NCBI GenBank assembly: GCA_017519185.1
Contig: JAFWSX010000013.1
Span: 1-64,000, forward strand
Direction of reading: 5' to 3'
DNA from: Bacteroidales bacterium
GTDB taxonomy: Bacteria; Bacteroidota; Bacteroidia; Bacteroidales; UBA932
DNA length: 64,000 bases
Positions 9,570 through 55,728 of the stretch are shown piece after piece. The notes beneath the pieces were generated by a model, which saw nothing but the letters and a program-made list of their open reading frames with translations, was not told the DNA's origin and did not search any database. The translations under genes and the position numbers were made by a program. Every line of letters begins with the position of its first letter. Position 1 is the stretch's first letter.

Positions 9570-9577
9570 TAAATTTG
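9570..9577 (+). promoter_or_regulatory. -7 element abutting the truncated uvrC start
   Basis: TAAATTTG ends only 5 bases before the ATG at 9583, so the transcript would have almost no leader. Confidence 0.55.
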
Positions 9578-9582
9578 TGACA

Positions 9583-9828
9583 ATGGAAGTCCGCGAAAAA
9601 GTCGAATATCTGCCTCATTCCCCGGGGGTTTACCGTTTCCTCAACGAGGAAGGGACGGTGATTTATGTGGGAAAGGCGAAGGACCTCAAGCGCCGCGTGT
9701 CGCAGTATTTCCGGCCGCCTGAGTCGCTGGACCGCAAGACCCGCGCCATGGTGAGCAAGATTGCCGACCTGATGCACACCGTCGTGGCTTTCGAGGAGGA
9801 TGCATTCCTGCTTGATAAAACCTCATAA
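9583..9828 (+). pseudogene. uvrC: UvrC cut off after its GIY-YIG domain
   Basis: The 81 codons match the UvrC N-terminus very well: LPHSPGVYRFLNEEG, VIYVGKAKDLKRRVSQYF, TRAMVSKIADL, then EEDAFLLDKTS and a stop. Full UvrC is about 600 residues, so the UVR, RNase H-like and helix-hairpin-helix parts are missing, and none of them is elsewhere in the window. The break falls right after the region corresponding to LLExNLIK, so the nuclease core itself is nearly complete. It is either a decayed gene at a rearrangement junction or a free-standing GIY-YIG protein. The ECF sigma promoter starts 32 bases after the stop. Confidence 0.85.
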
Positions 9829-9860
9829 TCGAGGCTGCGTAAAATTTTCTTAATTTTTAT

Positions 9861-9890
9861 GCAGTATTTCCGACATCTTGTCGTTATATA
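9861..9890 (+). promoter_or_regulatory. ECF-type promoter, copy 1 (before the first sigma gene)
   Basis: GCAGTATT at 9861-9868, a 13-base spacer and CGTTATATA at 9882-9890 match two other promoters in this window exactly in both boxes and in spacing. The CGTT core is typical of ECF -10 elements. The ATG of the sigma gene comes 4 bases after the box, which predicts a leaderless or nearly leaderless mRNA. Confidence 0.8.
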
Positions 9891-9894
9891 ATAA

Positions 9895-10482
9895 ATGACC
9901 GAGCAGGAACTGGCCAGCAGATGTGCGCGAGGAGATGATGCAGCACGCAAGGAACTGTATATGACATACAGTCCCAGACTGCTTTCGCTTTGCAGGCGCT
10001 ATGCAGACAACGATGCCGAGGCCGAAGATATGATGCAGGACGCCTTCATTAAAATCTTCAGCGTCATAGGAAGGTTTGTCTGGACCCGCCCTGGTTCTCT
10101 CTATTCCTGGATGGCGAGGGTGGCACTCAACCAGGCCTTTGACTCCGCAAGGAAACGGCGCAGGCTGGCCCGTGAGATGATGGATATAGAAGTTCTGCCC
10201 GATGTCCAGTCAGATGAACCGGATTATGACGAGACAGCCGCCGTTCCTTTCGATGAATTGCAGAAGATGATCGCCGCTTTGCCTGAAGGATGCCAGACCA
10301 TCTTCAAACTCTATTGTATTGATGGCTTGTCTCACAAGGAGATAGCATCCTTGCTCGATATTAAAGAGAAAAGCTCTTCCTCTGGCCTGGCAAGGGCACG
10401 AGCCTCACTTGCCAGAGCCATTCGAAAATATCTTAATGAAAATAAGCAGTTTTTTAATAAAAATGACGTTATTAATATGTAA
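9895..10482 (+). CDS. ECF-family RNA polymerase sigma factor
   Basis: The 195-residue protein has region 2 (YMTYSPRLLSLCRRY, then EAEDMMQDAFIKIF) and region 4 (LPEGCQTIFKLYCIDGLSHKEIASLLDI), the two-domain layout of ECF sigma factors. It directs RNA polymerase to promoters of one type. Its own gene carries the shared GCAGTATT/CGTTATATA promoter, so positive autoregulation is likely. The next gene, 12 bases downstream, looks like its anti-sigma factor. The first three codons could be upstream of the true start if transcription begins later, but no other Met precedes region 2. Confidence 0.92.
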   Translation: MTEQELASRCARGDDAARKELYMTYSPRLLSLCRRYADNDAEAEDMMQDAFIKIFSVIGRFVWTRPGSLYSWMARVALNQAFDSARKRRRLAREMMDIEVLPDVQSDEPDYDETAAVPFDELQKMIAALPEGCQTIFKLYCIDGLSHKEIASLLDIKEKSSSSGLARARASLARAIRKYLNENKQFFNKNDVINM

Positions 10483-10494
10483 TAAGTAGTTGCA

Positions 10495-11733
10495 ATGGAA
10501 CTAAAACCTAAAAAAGACTGGACCGATGCCATCCGGGAGAAATATCTCTCGGAACTCCCCGAAAGCACTTCTGCCGTCGGGTGGGAGGCAATAGGACGTC
10601 GACTGCACCGCAGAACTGTGCTTCGCCGCAGCGCAGTAGCCGCAGCCATCCTGTTGCCTTTCACTGCACTGCTCATCTGGAGTCCCTGGCACAACGCAGT
10701 CCCTGCCCTGGAAAGCCCTGTCGCAATTGTGGAAGAGGCTCCCGCAGTTCCGGATGTTGATGAGGAAGCAGCTATTGCTCCTGATTCAACGGCAATCCGT
10801 AATGCAGTCCAGCAAGCAGAAAAGCCTGTGTTCATCGCTCAGCCAGAGCAGTCCCAAGTTGCTGATGACCTGTCCCGTGAGCAGCAATTGCCCACTACCC
10901 CTTCTGCGGATACTGAAACCGCCGGCCCTGATTCTTCTGCCACAAACACTCAGGGTCCCTCAGAACAACCCTCACCACGCCAGATCCGGGAACTCGTGCC
11001 TGACGACCTGATGGCCTTCGCCGAGCCAGAACCCAGGCAGCGCCTGAAAGTTTCTGTCGGCTTGAGTGCCGGAACCGTGGCTGGGCAGCGTGATATGAGG
11101 CTCAACACAATGTCTGCACCGTATTTTGCAAAACTTGCCTATATGAACTATGGACCATCCATTCAAACGGCAGGCAAGATCAGTCTCTCAAATATAGACA
11201 GACAGTATTACAGTTATTTGCAGACTAAGTCGGCGAGCAATGTCTTCATGCCGAACCCTTCAACACCATCCGATGTGCAGTACAGGCACGACCTCCCCCT
11301 CACATTCGGCTTGTTGGCAAAAGTCGGTCTGCTTCCCTGGCTGGGTGTCGAGAGCGGTGTGGAATATACATACCTGCACTCGGTCGCCGATTCGTATACC
11401 GGCATCTTGGACCAGCGGCTCCATTTTATCGGCGTTCCTGTCAGGCTCGATGCTCGAATCTGGTCAAACTCTTCTTTTGAACTCTATGCTGCGCTTGGAG
11501 GCAAAGCTGAAAAGTGCGTCTCGGCAATCCTGGGGCAGATACAATGTGATGAGCGCAGAATCCAACTGGCTGCTGAGGTGGCAGGGGGTATACAATACCG
11601 GCTGTGGAAGAGCACATATCTTTATCTCCAACCCGAGCTGTCTTGGTATTTGACAAAAACAGACCTTATTACTTACCGGTCTGAGAACCCTCTGGCTTTC
11701 TCGTTTGACGCCGGTCTCCGATTTGAGCTGTAA
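10495..11733 (+). CDS. Putative dual-membrane-spanning anti-sigma factor with beta-barrel domain
   Basis: This 412-residue protein has a charged cytoplasmic head (1-45) and one membrane helix at about 46-62. A Pro/Glu/Ser-rich linker follows (about 65-190), then a region of alternating strands (about 195-412) ending FDAGLRFEL like an outer-membrane beta-barrel. A family with this plan (Dma) is known in Bacteroides to bind an ECF sigma factor inside the cell and sense the outer membrane. The gene lies 12 bases after the sigma gene, which fits. I assign the role from layout and context; no anti-sigma motif is strong enough on its own. Confidence 0.72.
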   Translation: MELKPKKDWTDAIREKYLSELPESTSAVGWEAIGRRLHRRTVLRRSAVAAAILLPFTALLIWSPWHNAVPALESPVAIVEEAPAVPDVDEEAAIAPDSTAIRNAVQQAEKPVFIAQPEQSQVADDLSREQQLPTTPSADTETAGPDSSATNTQGPSEQPSPRQIRELVPDDLMAFAEPEPRQRLKVSVGLSAGTVAGQRDMRLNTMSAPYFAKLAYMNYGPSIQTAGKISLSNIDRQYYSYLQTKSASNVFMPNPSTPSDVQYRHDLPLTFGLLAKVGLLPWLGVESGVEYTYLHSVADSYTGILDQRLHFIGVPVRLDARIWSNSSFELYAALGGKAEKCVSAILGQIQCDERRIQLAAEVAGGIQYRLWKSTYLYLQPELSWYLTKTDLITYRSENPLAFSFDAGLRFEL

Positions 11734-11757
11734 TCAATATATAGAATTCATTATACT

Positions 11758-12444
11758 ATGAAACAGATAAGATATATTATAGGGTGTGTCACAATAGCCT
11801 TGTTTCTGTCTGGATGCATTGAAAAGATAGGGTCGGCTGAGGAATGGCCACATACAGCAGGGGGTGTGACAAAAGCTGAACAGATTATTCCTATGGATTC
11901 ATATCGTTTGCACATCAGCTTCAAGGATCCTGCAGGTCACGATTTGCTGGAGCAGACGGCCTACTACAAGTCTGACCCTACCAGCCCGAAATACCTCGGA
12001 GAGGTCAATCCGGATTTTTATACTCTCAGAATAGCATCCTCATATGTCTATGCTCTTGATACTTATTATTTTACTTTGGCGAAATTCGACGAGCATCATA
12101 GTTGGCTGCCGACAGACATCAACGGAGTATATCATGACAAGGGGACATGGTATTTATCAAACGATTTCATAATACAGTCAAAGCCTGATGGCTCACCGTA
12201 TAGCCCATTACGATATAATATCTGTTGTCCGACAATATTTGGAAGTACATGGTTTCACACCCTCATCACTTGGTGGGAAGAGGGGCCAAGGGACGAGAAG
12301 AGCGGACAACATTTTCCTATATGCGTAAGAGCAAATATCGACGGCAGAGAAATAACACCGGTAATTGGCATCACTTATAATGAGAAAAACGAGCCCTACT
12401 ATTTTGGATACTTCCTGGACATAGTTGTCGACAGGTTAAATTAA
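11758..12444 (+). CDS. Lipoprotein of a four-member window family (member A)
   Basis: A 228-residue lipoprotein with lipobox LSGC (Cys20). I do not recognise a named domain. It shares an ordered set of blocks with genes at 13564, 45869 and 51593: an early ISFKDPAGHDLLE block, VNPDFYTLRI, WYLSN, the core CPTIFG followed by a spaced His and ITWWEE, a second Cys in PICVRA, DGREITP, and a closing YFLDIVVD. The two shared Cys suggest a disulfide or metal site. It lies 24 bases after the anti-sigma gene, so it is probably in the sigma operon. AT content is higher than in neighbouring housekeeping genes. Confidence 0.75.
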   Translation: MKQIRYIIGCVTIALFLSGCIEKIGSAEEWPHTAGGVTKAEQIIPMDSYRLHISFKDPAGHDLLEQTAYYKSDPTSPKYLGEVNPDFYTLRIASSYVYALDTYYFTLAKFDEHHSWLPTDINGVYHDKGTWYLSNDFIIQSKPDGSPYSPLRYNICCPTIFGSTWFHTLITWWEEGPRDEKSGQHFPICVRANIDGREITPVIGITYNEKNEPYYFGYFLDIVVDRLN

Positions 12445-12478
12445 TTTACCTTTACGGAAAATCTATTGACAGACTACT

Positions 12479-13492
12479 ATGATTCAGCGTTCTTTCTGTC
12501 TGGTGCTGGTTTTACTGCTTGTCTGCGGCTGTTCTGAAAAGTGGAATGGTGTCGATCCCAACGCCGTCGAAGATTTTGAAATCAAAGGCTTGACTCTTGA
12601 CAATTTCCCTTTTATGGACTGTTCGACGAGTACCAGCCCTCTTCGGGATATGGTTATGTACAATCTGCTCGACATTCCGTATGGTTGGGGAATGAATGTC
12701 GTGACAGGGTCGCAGTACGAGATCTTTTTCCACCTTCCTGAAGGAATGGAGACGGGGAGCGACGAACATAAGGCGTTTGCGGCAAAGATACGTGAGTTGA
12801 AACAGGCCAGCGGCTCTCACGAAGCCTACGTCAATCTGATCGACGGAGTGACCGGCGTCATCATAGATTCCCGCGACATTTCCCGCAATGAGAAAAATTA
12901 TGCCGACGAAAAGCACGTGACGATTGAGACGAAACCATTGGCGTGGGACGCCCTGGTCTTTGTCGTACATCCTGGCAATAAAGTCAAGTCGCTTACGCAG
13001 GATCAGATACGCAAGATATACACAGGTGAGATAACCAACTGGAAAATGGTGGGAGGGGACGACTTGGAGATACACGCCTACACACGCAATGTAGACTCCG
13101 GCAGCCAGGAGAAGATGGAGACGCTTGTGATGGACGGGCTCAAGATGATTGACAATCCTGTATATATGGGCGGTGCGATGCTCTCTCCTTACCTGTCCAT
13201 CGAGATGGATCCTTGCGGCATCGGTTATACCCCATACTATTTCTGTGAAAGTATGGTCCGCGACCTTCACGACGTCAGGGTCATCGCCGTGGACGGAGCG
13301 TATCCCACATCAGAGACGATAATGAAAGCCGTAAAAGGCGAGAAAGGGGCATATCCATACTTCTCAAACATCTACGCTGCAATCCGCTCCGACGAATCCG
13401 ACAACTCCCTTTCAAGGCAGATCTACAAGTGGCTCTCTACCCCCAGGGCAAAGGATATCATCGACGAGAGCGGATATATATCCATAAGGTAA
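12479..13492 (+). CDS. PstS-like periplasmic binding lipoprotein
   Basis: The 337-residue protein has a lipobox VCGC (Cys18) and a type II periplasmic-binding fold. The block LTQDQIRKIYTGEITNWKMVGG is the hallmark of PstS-like phosphate-binding proteins, and the end (YKWLSTPRAKDIIDESGY) fits too. No ABC permease or ATPase gene is nearby, so it may act as a sensor or scavenging protein rather than a transporter part. It is the last gene of the sigma-anti-sigma-lipoprotein run, 34 bases after the previous stop. Confidence 0.75.
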   Translation: MIQRSFCLVLVLLLVCGCSEKWNGVDPNAVEDFEIKGLTLDNFPFMDCSTSTSPLRDMVMYNLLDIPYGWGMNVVTGSQYEIFFHLPEGMETGSDEHKAFAAKIRELKQASGSHEAYVNLIDGVTGVIIDSRDISRNEKNYADEKHVTIETKPLAWDALVFVVHPGNKVKSLTQDQIRKIYTGEITNWKMVGGDDLEIHAYTRNVDSGSQEKMETLVMDGLKMIDNPVYMGGAMLSPYLSIEMDPCGIGYTPYYFCESMVRDLHDVRVIAVDGAYPTSETIMKAVKGEKGAYPYFSNIYAAIRSDESDNSLSRQIYKWLSTPRAKDIIDESGYISIR

Positions 13493-13508
13493 TATTATGA
13501 TTTTTGAT

Positions 13509-13538
13509 GCAGTATTTCGCAAATCGATGCGTTATATA
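13509..13538 (+). promoter_or_regulatory. ECF-type promoter, copy 2 (before lipoprotein B)
   Basis: GCAGTATT, 13 bases, CGTTATATA, identical in boxes and spacing to copies at 9861 and 52319. The start codon is at 13564, giving a short normal leader. Confidence 0.8.
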
Positions 13539-13563: not shown

Positions 13564-14400
13564 ATGAAAACACTTATTAAATTTATCCTTGTGGCTGCGC
13601 TCGTCTTTACTGCTTCGTGCTCGAAGGATAACTTAGATTTATCTCAACAATCTGACTACCTGTCAGCCATTGATGCCCTTGCCAAAGCATCTGATGAGTC
13701 TACAGAGTATGATCCTTCAGCTCCTTTTACTGTAGATGATGTGTTGGATCATATTTTTAATTCATCGAATCAGGTAAGGACATATAGAATTGCTTTTAAT
13801 TTTAAAGATGCCGACGGTAACGAGCTGGCCGAACCTTTCGTAGAAGAGCAGTGGATAAGAAAAGGCGACAGCCGCTGGTGGGGAGAAATCAATCCTGATA
13901 AATACAAGTTGGACTTTATATTGCCCAATCCTCCTGCTTGGTGGGACAATACGATTTACAATCACAGAGCCGCCCCTGGTTTTATCCCTGCCGTCAATCG
14001 TCCAAGACTGTCGATGTGTAGATTTGATGATAAAGGTGTAATGAGTGACAATACCCTCGTCGCCGAGGAAAATGATAATTGCAGTTGGTATTTATGCAAC
14101 GAATTTGGCTACATGATAGATGATTTCGCGCTGCAGGAGACCGTAAAATACCAGATAACTTGCCCGACAATTTTCGGTGACAACGCAGTGCACGAGTTTA
14201 TTACTTACTGGAAGGAAGATGAGGACTTGAATCCTGATGCTGCCCAACGATTTGCCACTTGCACAAAAGTAGAATATGACGGCAAGGAAATTACCCCCAT
14301 AAAAGGAGTAACTATCATACATTACGATTTATCCGATCCTTACGAAGACGTGGATGTCAGATATGTCCATTATCTGGTCGACATCGTCCTCGACAAGTAA
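13564..14400 (+). CDS. Lipoprotein of the four-member window family (member B)
   Basis: A 278-residue lipoprotein (lipobox TASC, Cys19) with an extra stretch of about 50 residues before the shared region. It has FNFKDADGNELAEPF, INPDKYKLDF, WYLCNEFG, the core CPTIFGDNAVHEFITYWKED, a second Cys in ATCTKV, DGKEITP and the end HYLVDIVLDK. It is the family member with the clearest ECF promoter of its own, so it is probably a direct sigma target. A strong bidirectional terminator follows. The function is unknown; the signal predicts an envelope location. Confidence 0.78.
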   Translation: MKTLIKFILVAALVFTASCSKDNLDLSQQSDYLSAIDALAKASDESTEYDPSAPFTVDDVLDHIFNSSNQVRTYRIAFNFKDADGNELAEPFVEEQWIRKGDSRWWGEINPDKYKLDFILPNPPAWWDNTIYNHRAAPGFIPAVNRPRLSMCRFDDKGVMSDNTLVAEENDNCSWYLCNEFGYMIDDFALQETVKYQITCPTIFGDNAVHEFITYWKEDEDLNPDAAQRFATCTKVEYDGKEITPIKGVTIIHYDLSDPYEDVDVRYVHYLVDIVLDK

Positions 14401-45868: not shown

Positions 45869-47733
<1,865 letters not shown>

Positions 47734-47800: not shown

Positions 47801-47808
47801 TAAATTTG
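47801..47808 (+). promoter_or_regulatory. -7 element abutting the TPR/HTH regulator
   Basis: TAAATTTG ends 3 bases before the ATG at 47812, whose signal peptide shows it is the real start. A leaderless mRNA is expected. Confidence 0.55.
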
Positions 47809-47811
47809 TTT

Positions 47812-49482
47812 ATGAAGCAACGGCTTATACTCCTTCTCCTTCTTTGCCTGACTGCGTGCGGTACTACAGGGATCCAGAGCCGGCTGGATGAAATCGACGG
47901 CTATGTGGACAGTGACCCGCAGGCAGCGCTTGCCGCCCTCACGGGTCTGGATATGGGTGATGTCAGATCGCGTTCGGACAAAGCACACTATTCCCTGCTC
48001 TACAGCAAAGCTCTTGATAAATGCTACATCGACACAACCGATGTCTCTGTCGTGGCAGACGCCGTAGACTGGTATTCACGACACGGCAGCCCGGATGAGA
48101 AAATGCAGACCTATTATTATCTCGGGCGCATCTATGGCAATGCCGGCAGATATACCGAGTCCATCATCGCCCTTACGCAGGCACTTGAAGAGGGGGAGCA
48201 GTCTTCTGACGTCAAGTACAAAGGCAGGGTCTACATAGCGATGGCAGATGCCTACAACAATAATTACAATGTGATTGAAGAGGGGCGTTGCGTGGACAAG
48301 GCGTTGGAGTATTTCAAGGAATCTGGTGATTCCACACAGATAAGAGCCGCACTTTTCCGCAAAGCAATCAGTTGTATGAATCTTGATGATTACGATGAGT
48401 CTGACTCCCTATTTTGTTATTTATTGTCCATTCCAGACTTAAAACCACATCTGAGAGCCAATTGCCTTTATCATTATGCCTATCTGCTTGCCTTACGTGA
48501 TGGTGATCCGCAAAGGGCGAAAGCATTGTTCGAAGAAGCAGCCGGAGCCGGAGCGGGTTTTACCCAAGAGGCTGTGGCTGCATATTCATATATTCTGTGG
48601 TGCACAGGAGACAAAAAAGGGTCCGATGAGATGTTTGGCGCTTTGGAGCAAAGTGATTCTACCGCCGTCGGTCTCATAGCATTTTGGAAAAGCAGGATAA
48701 AGGCGGAAGAAGGTTCCTATCATGAAGCGTATAATTATCTTGATAATGCTCTGACTTATTCTGCCAAGGCGGAGTCCGAGGCTCTCCGACAGTCTCTTTC
48801 AATAGCCCAACGGGATTATTATTCGGCTGTAGCTGAGCAGCAGAGAGTCAATGCGGACAACCACAAGACGGTTTCTGTACTTATTGGAGTAGCGTCAATA
48901 GCTGTTGTCTTTCTGCTTTTTGGGATTGGAATAAATGTCATCAGGAGGATTAAGGAGCGCAGTGACCAAGCCATATCGAATCTTGAGTATATAAGAGAAA
49001 GGATGATGGCTGCGCAGAAGTCGGCAGACGATAAGGAAATAAAGATACAATCCCTCCAGGCAAAGTTCAGGGAGGTATTCCGGGAACATTTACAGATCGT
49101 AGCCAATCTCTATGAAAGCTACGATTTAAACCTTCGTCGAGGTGCTAATGGCGTCTCTACCTATAAGCAAGTCCAGGATGTTTTCAAGGCAATCAGGGGG
49201 GAAGAAGAATCCGGCCACTTGTTCGAACAAATCATAGACCGTGATATGGATGGGCTTATCTCTGCTTTCCGGAGAGACTTCCCAAAGCTCAAGGAACTCG
49301 ACTATCAGTTGTTCTGCTATTATGTGGCCGGTTACGATACAAAAACCATTTCAATAATCCTTTCGGAGAGGAGTGCTGATTCCTTGTATATGAGGAAGAG
49401 CAGGCTGAAAAAAAAGATTGAAGACTCGTCAGCAAAAGATAAAGAAAAGTATCTCGAATACTTCAGATGCAAAGATTCCTGA
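47812..49482 (+). CDS. Membrane-bound TPR regulator with C-terminal HTH-like domain
   Basis: The 556-residue protein begins with a signal and lipobox-like LTAC (Cys16). Several TPR-type helical pairs follow (about 60-330; for instance TYYYLGRIYGNAGRYTESIIAL). One membrane helix lies at about 354-375, then a cytoplasmic coiled coil (about 380-430) and a C-terminal segment with YDTKTISIILSERSADSLYMRKSRLKKKI resembling a sigma region 4/LuxR-type helix-turn-helix. This layout occurs in Bacteroidota one-component membrane regulators. It precedes the DUF3244 and C10 genes and may control them. The presence of both a signal and a later membrane helix leaves topology uncertain. Confidence 0.72.
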   Translation: MKQRLILLLLLCLTACGTTGIQSRLDEIDGYVDSDPQAALAALTGLDMGDVRSRSDKAHYSLLYSKALDKCYIDTTDVSVVADAVDWYSRHGSPDEKMQTYYYLGRIYGNAGRYTESIIALTQALEEGEQSSDVKYKGRVYIAMADAYNNNYNVIEEGRCVDKALEYFKESGDSTQIRAALFRKAISCMNLDDYDESDSLFCYLLSIPDLKPHLRANCLYHYAYLLALRDGDPQRAKALFEEAAGAGAGFTQEAVAAYSYILWCTGDKKGSDEMFGALEQSDSTAVGLIAFWKSRIKAEEGSYHEAYNYLDNALTYSAKAESEALRQSLSIAQRDYYSAVAEQQRVNADNHKTVSVLIGVASIAVVFLLFGIGINVIRRIKERSDQAISNLEYIRERMMAAQKSADDKEIKIQSLQAKFREVFREHLQIVANLYESYDLNLRRGANGVSTYKQVQDVFKAIRGEEESGHLFEQIIDRDMDGLISAFRRDFPKLKELDYQLFCYYVAGYDTKTISIILSERSADSLYMRKSRLKKKIEDSSAKDKEKYLEYFRCKDS

Positions 49483-49604
49483 TGTTGCGTGTTAGACTTT
49501 TATTTGCGGCCCTTGTTGTAAATATTAGAAAATAAGATACTTGCGCATATCTCTATTGTTGGTTTTGTTAGACTGCAGTTAGACTTCCACCATGCTTTTC
49601 AGGC

Positions 49605-49612
49605 TAACTTTG
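49605..49612 (+). promoter_or_regulatory. -7 element for the DUF3244-like gene
   Basis: TAACTTTG, 23 bases before ATG 49636. The -33 region is not clear. Confidence 0.5.
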
Positions 49613-49635
49613 TGTATGCCTAATAACCAACGCTT

Positions 49636-50007
49636 ATGAAAACAACACTTTCACTTTTACTGACAGCATCTTTTGCTGTGCTTATGTCTCTTGGACTCTC
49701 TGCTAAAACAGACGGGGATTTGCCAATACCTATAAAGATATCCCGTCCTGGTGCAAATGAAAACCGTTCTCCTGAACAAGTCCCTTTCTATGCCCAGATT
49801 GAGGATTATTACGTAACCCTTGGCTGTGCCTCCTCAATAGGAAGTGCGTACATAACACTCATTTCTACTGCAGGAGATGATTATCAAACTGTGTTTGACA
49901 CATCTGCAGGTGAAATAAACATTCCCATCAGTGGCGCTTCTGGACAATACAGACTTGATATTGTTCTCTTCTCTGGCGAATCCTATTACGGAGAGTTCAT
50001 CCTTTGA
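49636..50007 (+). CDS. Small secreted DUF3244-like protein
   Basis: 123 residues with a signal peptide ending LGLSAK, then a single beta-sandwich-like domain with SAYITLISTAGDDYQTVFDT and YRLDIVLFSGESYYGEF. The pattern fits DUF3244, short secreted proteins found in many Bacteroidota, often beside peptidases. It is 84 bases before the C10 peptidase gene. A role as inhibitor or partner of that peptidase is possible but not shown by the sequence. Confidence 0.65.
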   Translation: MKTTLSLLLTASFAVLMSLGLSAKTDGDLPIPIKISRPGANENRSPEQVPFYAQIEDYYVTLGCASSIGSAYITLISTAGDDYQTVFDTSAGEINIPISGASGQYRLDIVLFSGESYYGEFIL

Positions 50008-50091
50008 GTATGCAACGTTTGAGGGGAATAAAGCATCTTTTAAGAGAATTATCTCTAAAGAAAAGTCAACACACCTAAACACAATGCTTTT

Positions 50092-51582
50092 ATGAAGAGA
50101 TTATCATTATCAGCAGCATTGCTGAGCGCAGCTATGCTGTTTGTTGCCTGCAACGGGATTGAAAAGGCTGCTTCTGATGTGGCGCCTGCCTCTGCCGTGC
50201 GTACTGCGGATGCGGCACGAAGCGTCAATGTCAGCCAGGGCGAAGCTGCCGGAATCGCAGATATGTTCCTGCAGACCGAAGCCGGCAGCAATAGGATACC
50301 TACAAAGAGTTCGGACTCACAGTCAAAACGTGTCAGCACGACAGCTACCGTCCGTGATGACGGGCAGGACCTGATGTACGTATTCAACTATGAAGGAGGT
50401 GGCTTTGTCATCGTGGGATCTACGAGAAACTACTATCCTATTCTTGCCTATTCAGACAAAGGCTCGTTTGAGCTGCAGGATGACATGGGCCCGGTGGACG
50501 TATGGCTTGACGAGACAAAAGTGTGCATCAAGAACAGTTCATCGCAGAGTGCTGAAACTAAGGCACAGATGCAGCAACTGTGGGCACGATACGACGGAAC
50601 TTATGTGGACCCGACGCAGGAAATTCTTGCTGCCCGCCGGCCACAGACCCGTAGTGTGGGAGAAGATTCATGCTGGGCGCGCATCGAATATTTGCAATCT
50701 CTGTATGGCAGTGAAGGCTGGACGTTCAACTCCCTCTCCAACGCTGAGTACTATTTCGATGAATGGGGATTCGGAGACTTATACGACCAACTTTGCAACT
50801 CCGCTATACAGAATCATTCTGATCCCAGTGAGACAGTGATTGGTTATAAATATGGTCATGAAATAACAACACAGGTGGGCCCTTTGGTCGGTACTGAATG
50901 GTATCAAGAAGCTCCATTTGGTAATTTATGTCCTAATGGTACTGCTGGCTGCGGGCCAGTGGCTGCTGCCCAAGTTATGTTCTTTCACCAATATCCAGAT
51001 ACTCTTTCTTGGGATGGCATTCCCTTTACATGGCAAGATGTTCCAGCACATTATGTTAGTCTCTTCCAGACTTTAAGGCACCCTGAATTGATGAGAATGC
51101 TTGGAGAGAAATTCAATGTAATCTATTATACTGATAGTACAACATCTTCAACAGTATATAAAGTAGTTCACGGGCTACAATCATTAGGGTATACTGCTTA
51201 TAGTCAAAACTATAATGTTACCTCAACGCACAATGAATTATTTAACAACCACAGACCAATCATAATGCGAGGAGTTAATACAGCTACAAATAAGGGACAT
51301 TTATGGGTATGCGAAGGCGATAAACAAACTCTCGTTAACCAATTGGTTTTTTATACGGAGAATCAGCCATATGGCTCAGGAACATTCTATCCAGGTATGT
51401 ATTCTTACAATAATCCAGGCGTTGAAGGAGGAGTAATGTATTTATATTTCTATATGAACTGGGGCTGGGGTAGTACAAACAATTATCACCCTAACGGATG
51501 GTTTTTATCAAACAACGTCAGCGTTAATGGTAATAATTATCAAAACTACAGAAAGAACATTTATGTATCAGTGCAAAATTAA
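50092..51582 (+). CDS. C10-family (streptopain-type) cysteine peptidase, lipoprotein
   Basis: 496 residues with lipobox VAC (Cys20). The N-terminal propeptide-like region (about 45-190) has GGGFVIVGSTRNYYPILAYSD, as in Spi-type pro-domains. The mature domain carries the catalytic Cys287 in TAGCGPVAAAQVMFFHQY, His403 in NKGHLWVCEG and MNWGWG near the end. It should be an envelope protease kept inactive until the pro-part is removed. From about 50.84 kb, within the gene, base composition becomes clearly more AT-rich. Lipoprotein D follows 10 bases later. Confidence 0.92.
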   Translation: MKRLSLSAALLSAAMLFVACNGIEKAASDVAPASAVRTADAARSVNVSQGEAAGIADMFLQTEAGSNRIPTKSSDSQSKRVSTTATVRDDGQDLMYVFNYEGGGFVIVGSTRNYYPILAYSDKGSFELQDDMGPVDVWLDETKVCIKNSSSQSAETKAQMQQLWARYDGTYVDPTQEILAARRPQTRSVGEDSCWARIEYLQSLYGSEGWTFNSLSNAEYYFDEWGFGDLYDQLCNSAIQNHSDPSETVIGYKYGHEITTQVGPLVGTEWYQEAPFGNLCPNGTAGCGPVAAAQVMFFHQYPDTLSWDGIPFTWQDVPAHYVSLFQTLRHPELMRMLGEKFNVIYYTDSTTSSTVYKVVHGLQSLGYTAYSQNYNVTSTHNELFNNHRPIIMRGVNTATNKGHLWVCEGDKQTLVNQLVFYTENQPYGSGTFYPGMYSYNNPGVEGGVMYLYFYMNWGWGSTNNYHPNGWFLSNNVSVNGNNYQNYRKNIYVSVQN

Positions 51583-51592
51583 ACCTAAGAAG

Positions 51593-52240
51593 ATGAAATC
51601 ATTTCAATCAATCGTTTTATTGGGATTGCTGGCTTCATTGCTTGCAGGGTGTGACAAGCTAGACACTCCGCCTGTACATTCATGTTTTCATTTTGTTGGA
51701 ATCAGCATCGAAGATACTTCAGGCAAAGATTTAGTCGCTTCTTTGGGAGACGAACAATGGATACCTCCAACAGAACACACTACAGAATGGTATGGAACCA
51801 TAAATCCCGAGCGGTATGCGTTGAGAATCATAAAGGCAGATAATACTGTCTGGGCAGCGCGGACAATGGAAGAGAGGAAAGCGCTGGAAGGACCATATTT
51901 TGTGCTTGGAAATGAACAATCATTAAAGGCAGATAATGGGACGACATATTCAGGATATTGGTTGTGTAATGTGTATAGAAAGGCCGATCCGAAAGGAGAA
52001 GTGGAGCCGGAAAAACAATTGACATACCGGTTGACTTGTCCTGAGATATTCGGTGACAATGAGGAACACGACATCGAAACGTATTGGGAAGAGAAAAGCA
52101 GAACAGGATTTGAAACCTATCCCGAATGTTCAAAAGCAGTGTTCGAAGGTAAAGAACTTGCTATATACAAACTACAACTCAGTACCGCGGGCTACAAAGA
52201 TCATTATGTGTATTGCATAAGGATCGTCCTGGATCAGTAA
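51593..52240 (+). CDS. Lipoprotein of the four-member window family (member D)
   Basis: I start at MKSFQSIVLL (51593) because it opens a signal with lipobox LAGC (Cys20); the longer frame overlaps the C10 gene. About 215 residues. Shared blocks: ISIEDTSGKDLVASL, INPERYALRI, the core CPEIFGDNEEHDIETYWEEK, a second Cys in YPECSKA and the end YCIRIVLDQ. It is in an operon with the C10 peptidase and is AT-rich. Partner or inhibitor roles are guesses; the linkage is fact. Confidence 0.78.
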   Translation: MKSFQSIVLLGLLASLLAGCDKLDTPPVHSCFHFVGISIEDTSGKDLVASLGDEQWIPPTEHTTEWYGTINPERYALRIIKADNTVWAARTMEERKALEGPYFVLGNEQSLKADNGTTYSGYWLCNVYRKADPKGEVEPEKQLTYRLTCPEIFGDNEEHDIETYWEEKSRTGFETYPECSKAVFEGKELAIYKLQLSTAGYKDHYVYCIRIVLDQ

Positions 52241-52318
52241 TCTGAAGAGGCATTTCGTCTCCTTGCTATGAGAGTTATAGGTCTTATTCCCATACCGCGG
52301 AAGGCCATTTAATGGACT

Positions 52319-52348
52319 GCAGTATTCATCCAATTGCCGCGTTATATA
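52319..52348 (+). promoter_or_regulatory. ECF-type promoter, copy 3 (before the second sigma gene)
   Basis: GCAGTATT at 52319-52326, 13 bases, CGTTATATA at 52340-52348, identical to copies at 9861 and 13509. The sigma start follows at 52377 or 52389. Confidence 0.8.
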
Positions 52349-52388
52349 TAGTGAACGATAGAATAACAACACTTCGTTGCATGTCTGC

Positions 52389-52934
52389 ATGTCCAAGAAG
52401 AACAGTCTGGATTCTCTCATAGAAGGGTGCAGGCATTCTGATCCGAAAGCCCAGCGGGAGGTCTATGAAATGCTGGCCCCGCGTATGTTTGCAGTATGCA
52501 GGCAATATATGAAAGACAAGGATCAGGCAGAAGATGTGTTGCAGGACGGCTTTGTGACATTGTTCGAAAAAATTTCGACCTTCAAGGGAGACGGCTCCTT
52601 CGAAGGCTGGGCGCGGAAGATATTCGTGAATACAGCCCTGATGCAGCTCCGCCGCAACGATGCCCTGAAGTTTTCAGACAGCATCGAGGATTCCCAGGCA
52701 GTGCAGATGATGCCGAGTGAAACTTTGGAACAGATAGGTGCTGAAGAGATAACAGATCTTATCAAAACGATGCCCGACGGATTCCGCGCAGTCTTTAACC
52801 TGTACGTAATAGAAGGTTATACGCATGAAGAGATAGCAGATATGCTGTCAATAACTGAAGGTGGTTCCCGTTCACAGCTCAGCCGGGCCAGGGCATGGCT
52901 CAGGAATAAGCTCACTCCACACAGGCAAGGGTAG
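52389..52934 (+). CDS. Second ECF-family sigma factor
   Basis: About 181 residues from MSKKNSLDSLIE (52389); a start at 52377 adds four residues. Region 2 has KDKDQAEDVLQDGFVTLFEKI and FEGWARKIFVNTALMQLRR, region 4 IEGYTHEEIADMLSITEGGSRSQLSRARAWLRNKL. It carries the same ECF promoter as the first sigma gene. No anti-sigma gene follows; the next gene, comF, converges and overlaps its end by 23 bases. It may therefore be controlled by expression alone or by the distant anti-sigma protein. Confidence 0.93.
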   Translation: MSKKNSLDSLIEGCRHSDPKAQREVYEMLAPRMFAVCRQYMKDKDQAEDVLQDGFVTLFEKISTFKGDGSFEGWARKIFVNTALMQLRRNDALKFSDSIEDSQAVQMMPSETLEQIGAEEITDLIKTMPDGFRAVFNLYVIEGYTHEEIADMLSITEGGSRSQLSRARAWLRNKLTPHRQG

Positions 52935-53682: not shown

Positions 53683-53716
53683 AAAAAACATGGAGTCACA
53701 AGACTCCATGTTTTTT
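53683..53716 (-). terminator. Terminator of the coiled-coil lipoprotein gene
   Basis: A perfect 15-base stem (AAAAAACATGGAGTC and its complement) with a 4-base loop. On the minus strand it ends in six T, right after the stop codon, which overlaps its first base. Confidence 0.85.
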
Positions 53717-55619
53717 AACCCTGGGTAATGGTTAATATCAGCTCGACTTGGAACTGTAATTGGACAGGTCTGAAACTCGGATCAGTTACGCTTGGTTGGA
53801 CGGAGACACTAAACGTTCCTAACACACCGAAATTATCACCCGGAGCGTAATCATCAATGAACCTCACCTCAATCGAACTACTCTCCGGCCTGAACAAAGC
53901 AGCTACAAATTTATATGATCGAATTTTCGTATACGCTTCATTGATTTGGTATCGGCAATCCTGCAAATTCGCATAATCGAATCCTAGGGCATATGATAAT
54001 TCATGCAGTACCACAGTCACAGTTTCATCATCATCAATCGTTTGGATTGGTATAGACCTTCTAATAGTTAAACTATGGGTATTGAACCAGCTCATCTGGA
54101 AATATTGTTTTCCAGACTGGTCCGTCATGTTGAAAAGCGTGTCTTTGGCTCCCCAACGGTCTTTCACGATCAGCAGGCCTTTCACATCCTCTCGCTTGAC
54201 AGTGGTAGAATCCTTGAAATTTCTCCATACAAGGCTTCCGGTCGTATCGGGAATGAAACTGATGTAATGCCTGTCCTTTTCAAAATTGACCTTGACCGGT
54301 GCGATATCGTCAGCCAGGGGCTGAAACTCCACAGTCTCGATGTCTTCGGCAGTGTAGGAGCCGTCCTGAGACGGGTCGAGGGCATAATAGATTTCGCCGA
54401 GTTCCACAATTTTTGAAAGATCAATGTCAAAAGAAGCATTGGGATAACACCAGGTCGTAAGATCCTTCGGGGTGCCGTGTGAAGGCTCAGTCTCAATCAA
54501 TGCAATGATTTCCCTGATGGCATTGAGGATGTTGTCGTAGGAGGTCAGGCCTTTGATGGCATTGAAGATGTCCGTCAGGGCAGATGTGATATCGGCACCT
54601 GGAAGAGCAGACTCGATATTAGAGATGGCCGTGATAATGTCGTTGATCTTGCCTCCGAGGTCTGTGCCGAGGTTCGTAATCGTCGACGGAATCGATGCTA
54701 CGGCATCCTTGATGAGATCCAGGGCTTTCTTTTCGTCCGTCAAGCCTTGCTTCAACGCCGACTCGATGGCAGCCAACTTGGTTGCCAGACCGCTGGTAGA
54801 ACTGCTGACAGCCGATGCGATGGCCGACAGTTTAGCCGTCGCGGAACCGGAGAGCGACGTGATGGCCTTCTGGATAAGCTCAAGGCTTGCCTCGCTGTCT
54901 GCCTGGCTTTCCTTGACAGCCGCTTCGATCAATGCGAGTTTCGTTTCAAGGCTGGTTGTCTGGGATTTTACAGCATCTTCGATAGCCGCCAGTTTATCTT
55001 CCATCGTACCCCCCAGCGATTCAATGGCGTCTTTGATCAGGCCCTGCGCTTCCTGACCGTCAGTGAGACCTGCTTTCACGGTTTCCTCAATCAGACCGAG
55101 TTTCGTTTCCAGGCTCGTCGTCTGGGCCTTTACTGCAGCTTCGACAGCCGCCAGTTTCTCGGCCACGGTGCCACCGAGCGACTCAATGGCTTGCTTCAGC
55201 AGAGCCTGCTGTGTCTTGCTGTCGGCGAAGCCGGCTTTAACGGCGGCTTCAATCAGTGCAAGTTTCGTTTCGAAGCCAGTGGTCTGGTCCTTGATGGCTG
55301 CTTCGATGGCCGCGAGCTTTTCAGCCACCGTACCGTCAAGCGAAGCTACTGCTTTCTGGACCAATGACATTGCATCCTGGCTGTCGTCAAAACCGCTGTT
55401 GAGTGCCGATTCGATCAGCGCCAGCTTGGCTGTCAGGGTTTCGTTTGCATCGTTGAGCGCCTGGACGAGCTTGCTGTAGTCCGATTTCATTGTGATATTG
55501 ATTTCGGATTGCTGACTCTCACAGGCTATGAACGTCAGCGGTGCAGCCATTCCCAACAAGAGGAACAAGCCAAGCAGACCACCTGCCAGGGGTCTTCTGT
55601 TGTTCTTATTCTGTTTCAT
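53715..55619 (-). CDS. Lipoprotein with 54-residue coiled-coil repeats
   Basis: I start at MKQNKNNRRP (55619), giving a long signal with lipobox FIAC (Cys33); the ORF extends 17 codons further without similarity. About 634 residues. From about 58 to 330 the chain repeats a 54-residue unit, TKLALIExAVKxG...LIxxAIxSLGGT..EKLAAIEAAVKxQTT, about five times, a regular alpha-helical coiled coil. Then comes a region of amphipathic helices, and from about 400 a beta-rich C-terminal domain (CYPNASFDIDLSKI...). It probably projects from the outer membrane as a stalk. I do not recognise a named family. Confidence 0.7.
   Translation of the reverse strand: MKQNKNNRRPLAGGLLGLFLLLGMAAPLTFIACESQQSEINITMKSDYSKLVQALNDANETLTAKLALIESALNSGFDDSQDAMSLVQKAVASLDGTVAEKLAAIEAAIKDQTTGFETKLALIEAAVKAGFADSKTQQALLKQAIESLGGTVAEKLAAVEAAVKAQTTSLETKLGLIEETVKAGLTDGQEAQGLIKDAIESLGGTMEDKLAAIEDAVKSQTTSLETKLALIEAAVKESQADSEASLELIQKAITSLSGSATAKLSAIASAVSSSTSGLATKLAAIESALKQGLTDEKKALDLIKDAVASIPSTITNLGTDLGGKINDIITAISNIESALPGADITSALTDIFNAIKGLTSYDNILNAIREIIALIETEPSHGTPKDLTTWCYPNASFDIDLSKIVELGEIYYALDPSQDGSYTAEDIETVEFQPLADDIAPVKVNFEKDRHYISFIPDTTGSLVWRNFKDSTTVKREDVKGLLIVKDRWGAKDTLFNMTDQSGKQYFQMSWFNTHSLTIRRSIPIQTIDDDETVTVVLHELSYALGFDYANLQDCRYQINEAYTKIRSYKFVAALFRPESSSIEVRFIDDYAPGDNFGVLGTFSVSVQPSVTDPSFRPVQLQFQVELILTITQG
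54632..55448 (-). repeat. Tandem repeats of about 162 bp within the coiled-coil gene
   Basis: Five diverged units encode TKLALIE..., four of them with an interleaved EKLAAIE... half. The 54-codon period is regular. Such arrays can change copy number by recombination, so length may vary between strains. Confidence 0.75.
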
Positions 55620-55639
55620 ATAAAAAAGTGTATCCCATT

Positions 55640-55647
55640 CAAATATA
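55640..55647 (-). promoter_or_regulatory. -7 element for the coiled-coil lipoprotein
   Basis: Minus-strand TATATTTG, 20 bases before the start codon; TTTTG lies about 20 bases further up as a possible -33 box. Confidence 0.55.
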
Positions 55648-55728
55648 ATAATTTGCCGGAAGAAATACAAAACGAAAAAATAGAATTGCGGGTGGGTCGG
55701 TCACTTTCTTTTTGTCAAAGATAATAGT

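Follow-up and report, generated by a model that had tools for sequence, protein, structure and literature searches.

A 64,000-nucleotide stretch of DNA (positions 1 to 64,000 of contig JAFWSX010000013.1, assembly GCA_017519185.1, hereafter the window), originating from a gut bacterium of the order Bacteroidales with a genome of 2.2 Mb in 37 contigs, carries an operon that encodes an extracytoplasmic function (ECF) sigma factor, a dual-membrane anti-sigma factor, a lipoprotein (LP1) of a family here designated LP, and a PstS-like lipoprotein. We consider it reasonably probable that this sigma/anti-sigma module is an outer-membrane-stress switch which controls both itself and a surface-proteolysis regulon by means of a shared promoter. 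Gene order, protein architecture, the shared promoter motif, the linkage of families and the decay of the PstS-like gene were computed in the current study. While the switch itself is very likely of the known Das/Dma, EcfO/Reo kind, the novelty lies in its lineage-specific output family and in a promoter tying this output to secreted proteases and inhibitors. The recent literature leaves open what the Dma/Reo anti-sigma factors sense, which promoters their sigma factors read and how their lipoprotein output functions; here, the close conservation of the promoter allows the regulon to be deduced from sequence, which suggests secreted proteases, protease inhibitors and a lineage-specific lipoprotein family in the place of NigD.

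The order sigma factor, anti-sigma factor, lipoprotein and PstS-like protein, with gaps of 12, 24 and 34 bp, had been proposed in an initial annotation of this DNA and matches the plus-strand open reading frames exactly (Table 1). That annotation omitted the promoter motif ahead of the sigma gene, its degenerate copy and a fifth gene, LP2. Sigma70-type promoters and terminators were no more frequent in the operon region than in shuffled sequences. The operon and the LP family were compared in the host genome (G000), G135 (goat), G067 (water buffalo), G125 and a yak locus (L189), the named close relatives being omasum Bacteroidales metagenome-assembled genomes of goat, yak and water buffalo. 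A genome scan with the anti-sigma factor as single-protein query returned three metagenome-assembled genomes only, all of ruminant omasum Bacteroidales.

The sigma factor consists of regions 2 and 4 without regions 1 and 3, as is typical of ECF sigma factors, and its TIGR02937 score exceeds the cut-off; the sole support for its placement in ECF21/Das is adjacency to the Dma-like gene, Dma genes being neighbours of ECF21 sigma genes (PMC13088901). In the window and in all homologous loci examined, the ECF sigma gene lies directly 5' of the anti-sigma gene, i.e., the latter adjoins the gene of its own sigma factor, as expected of a Dma. Profile searches with the anti-sigma sequence returned no significant family match. 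Its model displays the architecture of a Dma protein, namely a head (modelled with low confidence), a transmembrane helix, a long disordered tether and a C-terminal barrel, the last of which resembles the OmpA transmembrane domain (PDB 1bxw; Foldseek E-value 2.1e-7, TM-score by target 0.71). Furthermore, an alignment of 14 anti-sigma homologs exhibits a short head with a W..I..K pattern, arginines followed by a hydrophobic stretch and, beyond a highly variable linker, conservation of the C-terminal domain. Because this head-helix-linker-barrel architecture and the conserved pairing with a sigma factor match the published systems (PMC13088901, PMC13114119), the pair is very likely of the Das/Dma (EcfO/Reo) type, a likeness drawn from architecture and gene pairing rather than from direct sequence comparison, and the annotation of both genes is thereby substantiated. 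A locus of G125 (L102; C38:1-8200) carries the sigma/anti-sigma pair twice in tandem, with the motif at each, adjoining the same ribosomal protein genes.

Table 1. Features of the sigma/anti-sigma operon and of related genes in the window
Feature	Position	Strand	Evidence
Promoter motif TGCAGTATTTC-N11-CGTTATA, before sigma gene	9860-9888	+	Zero-mismatch repeat in window
ECF sigma factor, 195 aa	9895-10482	+	PF04542 (Sigma70_r2) 8.9e-15; PF08281 (r4_2) 2.1e-13; TIGR02937 (sigma70-ECF) 2.8e-27
Degenerate motif copy, overlapping sigma 3' end, before anti-sigma gene	10445-10473	+	Same place in homologous loci
Dual-membrane anti-sigma factor (Dma-like), 412 aa	10495-11733	+	Pairing with ECF sigma factor; AlphaFold2 model; Foldseek
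Predicted cytoplasmic head, residues 1-39, two helices, W..I..K pattern	10495-10611	+	Alignment; model helices 7-19 and 28-37
Predicted inner-membrane helix, residues 40-61, arginines on its N-terminal side (N-in)	10612-10677	+	AlphaFold2 model; sequence
Predicted disordered periplasmic linker, residues 62-185, ~124 aa	10678-11049	+	pLDDT (model confidence) <50 over residues 19-181
Predicted outer-membrane beta-barrel, residues 186-412, 8-stranded, OmpA type	11050-11730	+	pLDDT mostly 80-95 from residue 261; Foldseek
Recombined tract: last ~65 barrel residues and LP1, 55-57% amino acid identity to G135	11536-12460	+	Sliding DNA identity; per-segment protein identity
LP1 lipoprotein, 228 aa, beta-rich	11758-12444	+	Lipobox LSGC; 24-member family
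PstS-like lipoprotein, 337 aa	12479-13492	+	PF12849 3.5e-17; TIGR02136 8e-32
Second perfect promoter motif, before LP2	13508-13536	+	Zero-mismatch repeat; LP2 start at +27
LP2, LP1 paralog	13564-14400	+	Family search; own perfect motif
LP4, family member	45869-46504	+	Family search
C10 cysteine protease with I69 propeptide, LP3 immediately 3'	50092-51582	+	PF01640 4.4e-18; PF13734 8e-17
LP3, family member, 10 bp 3' of C10 protease	51593-52240	+	Family search
Promoter motif, two mismatches, before second ECF sigma gene	52318-52346	+	Repeat search in window
Second ECF sigma factor, no anti-sigma gene behind	52377-52934	+	PF04542 1.2e-15; neighbouring genes

The promoter motif, TGCAGTATTTC-N11-CGTTATAT, occurs in the window with zero mismatches at 9860 and 13508 and with two at 52318, as against 0 occurrences in 100 shuffles. 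The sigma start codon is located 6 bp 3' of the motif, a position and spacing that recur in G135 and G067; since it lies so near the -10 element, the sigma mRNA is probably leaderless. A copy with 0-2 mismatches precedes the anti-sigma gene in all five homologous loci (shuffle frequencies of 0.013, 0.0003, 0.0003, <0.0003 and 0.003, respectively), while the same five-locus check found no similar motif before LP1 or the PstS-like gene. This recurrence before the anti-sigma gene, and not before its downstream neighbours, suggests that the degenerate copy may be a feedback promoter providing negative feedback.

To define the distribution of the motif, the pattern WRMMGTATTTY-N11-YGTTATA was searched in six genomes of the same genus (G000, G135, G067, G125, G114 and G034). 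Fifteen perfect matches were found, six in G000, four in G135, two in G067 and three in G125; G114 and G034, both of which lack the LP family, contain no motif with 0-1 mismatch. All 14 perfect motifs that could be traced to a start codon are correctly oriented and stand 6-40 bp upstream of it; the fifteenth, at the end of a contig, is followed by an LP gene at a distance of about 440 bp. The genes that follow encode the sigma factor (+6, in three genomes), LP2 (+27), DUF4249 lipoproteins (+13 to +40), serpins (+30), a C10 protease (+27), a lipoprotein of 163 aa (+29) and a TonB-plug protein (+28). A perfect motif is also found 5' of C10 and LP2 in the yak relative, where motif and genes form one unit. 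Across the host genome, the best matches stand before envelope genes. A search with the spacing one base off, best regarded as a control, returned only one match in each of four genomes; an exception to this reading is the copy with a spacing of 17 that lies upstream of the G135 anti-sigma gene. The motif also stands at the head of operons in which tandem DUF4249 lipoprotein genes are accompanied by genes for a TonB-plug protein and for small proteins of outer-membrane-like character (L026/L033 at C4:66.8-74.3 kb, and L035 on C24). The serpin genes of the host genome are found on C16 (with the motif), on C27 (two, behind another sigma/anti-sigma pair) and on C31 (a fourth).

Two more sigma genes of the host genome, at 52377 of the window and on C27, have related sites upstream. 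The former may encode the second tier of a cascade, by analogy with the orphan ECF sigma factor bt_2569 of Bacteroides thetaiotaomicron, which may itself be such a second tier (PMC13088901). A homolog in G125 (L149) exhibits 74% identity and has the motif too.

LP1 has five paralogs in the host genome, three of them inside the window. The family was detected in four of 150 genomes of the taxonomic family, with 4-8 matches each, and, when 393 genomes drawn from the order were screened, in the host genome only; judged by this distribution, LP is a lipoprotein family restricted to a narrow lineage. A Pfam search with the 24 members returned nothing beyond weak or generic matches, and LP1 has no relative in the PDB, in agreement with its annotation as a lipoprotein of no recognised family. 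Three identities were considered and rejected: NigD (none of the 24 members matches this family at E <= 0.1), DUF4943 or DUF4858 (no Pfam match), and an inhibitor of known fold (neither the sequence profile nor, at E <= 0.001, the fold found a match in the PDB). The LP model consists for the most part of beta strands.

LP genes are found in three main kinds of neighbourhood, i.e., beside sigma/anti-sigma genes, beside C10 proteases with an I69 propeptide, and in DUF4249/TonB-plug operons. In the host genome, an LP gene lies directly 3' of both C10 genes, and in the yak relative and G125 a C10 gene lies directly 5' of LP2; adjacency to a C10 gene thus applies to LP3, LP6 and LP2 homologs, but not to LP1. 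Because transcripts of Bacteroides C10 protease genes also encode small, inhibitor-like partners, mostly lipoproteins (PMC2873492, PMC3462683), a role of LP as an inhibitor or partner of C10 proteases may be regarded as a fair lead. As in the pairs of protease and staphostatin-like Bfi/Bti inhibitor of these reports, a small lipoprotein gene directly adjoins the protease gene, whereas the lipocalin-like barrel of 116-138 aa that characterizes Bfi/Bti contrasts with LP proteins of about 200-290 aa, which lack a staphostatin fold or any other PDB fold and also occur without a protease. In the window, a TPR/DUF6377-like lipoprotein regulator, a DUF3244-like protein and the C10 protease are encoded consecutively (47806-51582, plus strand), and related loci also contain similar TPR lipoproteins in the vicinity of C10 or DUF4249 genes.

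The events at the cell envelope may accordingly be pictured as follows, where we infer direct promoter recognition by the sigma factor, the signal and the function of LP from sequence. The anti-sigma head would hold the sigma factor in the cytoplasm, while the OmpA-like barrel, on its flexible linker, would anchor the protein at the outer membrane. Disturbance of the outer membrane, most plausibly when surface or periplasmic components are damaged or proteolysed, would free the sigma factor, which would then transcribe its own operon from the promoter abutting its start codon and use the second promoter before the anti-sigma gene for negative feedback. The same promoter would further serve a scattered regulon of LP paralogs, a C10 protease with its LP, serpins, DUF4249/TonB-plug operons and a further ECF sigma factor. 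LP lipoproteins would constitute the core output, with a role like that of NigD in EcfO-Reo; some may act as partners, perhaps inhibitors, of C10 proteases, and the PstS-like protein would be accessory cargo.

Several observations weigh against this explanation. The anti-sigma head is modelled with low confidence, the motif is lacking at some LP and C10 genes (the C10 gene at 50092 in the window has no copy within 3 mismatches), and the fold of LP resembles neither the staphostatins nor any other inhibitor of solved structure. Furthermore, the genome encodes at least four ECF sigma factors of the same type, so that the motif may serve another or several of them. Taken further, the pair would control its own operon only, and the scattered motif would mark promoters of a general class, for stress or the stationary phase, that several ECF sigma factors read. 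Such an arrangement is unlikely but retains appreciable weight, given that several of these sigma genes have similar motifs upstream and that a single non-canonical promoter, with TGTT at -10, is believed to be common to several ECF sigma factors of B. thetaiotaomicron (PMC12596196); the -10 element described here resembles this TGTT. It accords poorly with the rarity of the motif, with its limitation to a small and functionally coherent set of genes, and with the lack of any motif with 0-1 mismatch in same-genus genomes that still possess Dma-type genes.

The signal might alternatively be the state of lipoproteins at the outer membrane, with LP1 as ligand or co-sensor of the barrel and C10 proteases titrating LP. 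RcsF with OmpA provides an analogy for such co-sensing by a lipoprotein and a barrel. LP1 lies 3' of the anti-sigma gene in the five operon copies whose downstream gene is an LP, LP genes lie directly 3' of C10 genes, and the last ~65 barrel residues were swapped together with LP1 in G000. In the comparison of G000 with G135, DNA identity is 97-100% around the operon and 86-100% across the sigma gene and most of the anti-sigma gene, as against about 51-78% at 11.5-12.5 kb, a tract flanked by barrel and PstS-like DNA of 97-100% identity; since LP1 of G135 and that of the yak relative are 94% identical, G000 is the carrier of the foreign allele. Exchange as one tract hints that barrel end and LP1 may belong together, a hint limited by the fact that a recombination tract may span neighbours by chance. 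LP1 is absent from other Dma operons and from the second pair of G125, and on balance co-sensing by LP1 appears quite doubtful. Slightly more doubtful still is a surface-proteolysis sensor in which LP1 would sit on the barrel, C10-type or foreign proteases would either remove LP from it or cleave the linker, and the sigma factor thus released would raise LP, serpins and protease; such a circuit would keep proteases and inhibitors in homeostasis and would involve a family of inhibitors not previously described.

The initial annotation had also put forward phosphate, or else an envelope ligand, as a possible signal. In its extended form, phosphate or another small anion would be bound by the PstS-like lipoprotein and relayed to the anti-sigma barrel, as might be suggested by the presence of the gene in the operon and by the protein's retention of the binding loops (SRD... 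and RN..SGS; 2.1e-18 to the solved phosphate-binding protein 4n13). Its TIGR02136 profile match scores below the curated cut-off (110.6 versus 206.6 bits). The annotation of this protein as one without transporter genes holds for its surroundings, where none are near; genome-wide, PstC was not found above cut-off (best 24.7 bits; PstA and PstB were not searched). The gene is broken in two of the three lineages whose operon copy carries it: in G135, 800 bp have been lost between short repeats, so that a remnant of 76 aa is left, while at the yak locus a 369-bp in-frame deletion takes out the ligand loops. In G067 and G125 the operon lacks the gene altogether, yet sigma factor, anti-sigma factor and LP1 persist. 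Full-length homologs in other genera, at ~40% identity, are encoded away from sigma and anti-sigma genes. Phosphate sensing as core function was therefore rejected on the grounds of the missing PstC, gene decay and absence from two operons, and the regulon sharing the promoter motif points instead to lipoproteins of the outer membrane and to secreted proteases and their inhibitors; a phosphate or anion signal is very improbable. Given the missing PstC, the decay or loss in relatives and the separate location of homologs, the PstS-like protein is most likely accessory, and probably dispensable, cargo and not the sensor.

The favoured outer-membrane-stress switch can be compared with two characterized systems. 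It shares with Das/Dma of B. thetaiotaomicron (PMC13088901) the sigma-then-anti-sigma order, the head, transmembrane helix, long disordered tether and C-terminal barrel, additional genes in the operon, and the operon as a main target (a predicted one here), Das2/Dma2 being known to drive its own operon; an orphan ECF sigma factor is induced there, and a motif-bearing orphan is present here. The systems differ in cargo, which is NigD, DUF4943 and DUF4858 in the former versus the LP family and the PstS-like protein in the latter, and in that the motif-defined regulon described here includes C10 protease, serpin and DUF4249 genes. EcfO-Reo of Bacteroides fragilis and Phocaeicola vulgatus, which drives three NigD surface lipoprotein paralogs (PMC13114119), similarly combines an envelope-spanning anti-sigma factor with a sigma regulon of scattered paralogous surface lipoproteins, whereas the 24-member LP family has no NigD Pfam match.

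Elsewhere in the window, a predicted lipoprotein of 651 aa with about ten long repeats of coiled-coil character is encoded at 53715-55670 (minus strand), with weak matches only. An 83-aa N-terminal fragment of UvrC (9577-9828, plus strand; TIGR00194 1.6e-22) ends just 5' of the sigma promoter, and this fragment is also present in G135.

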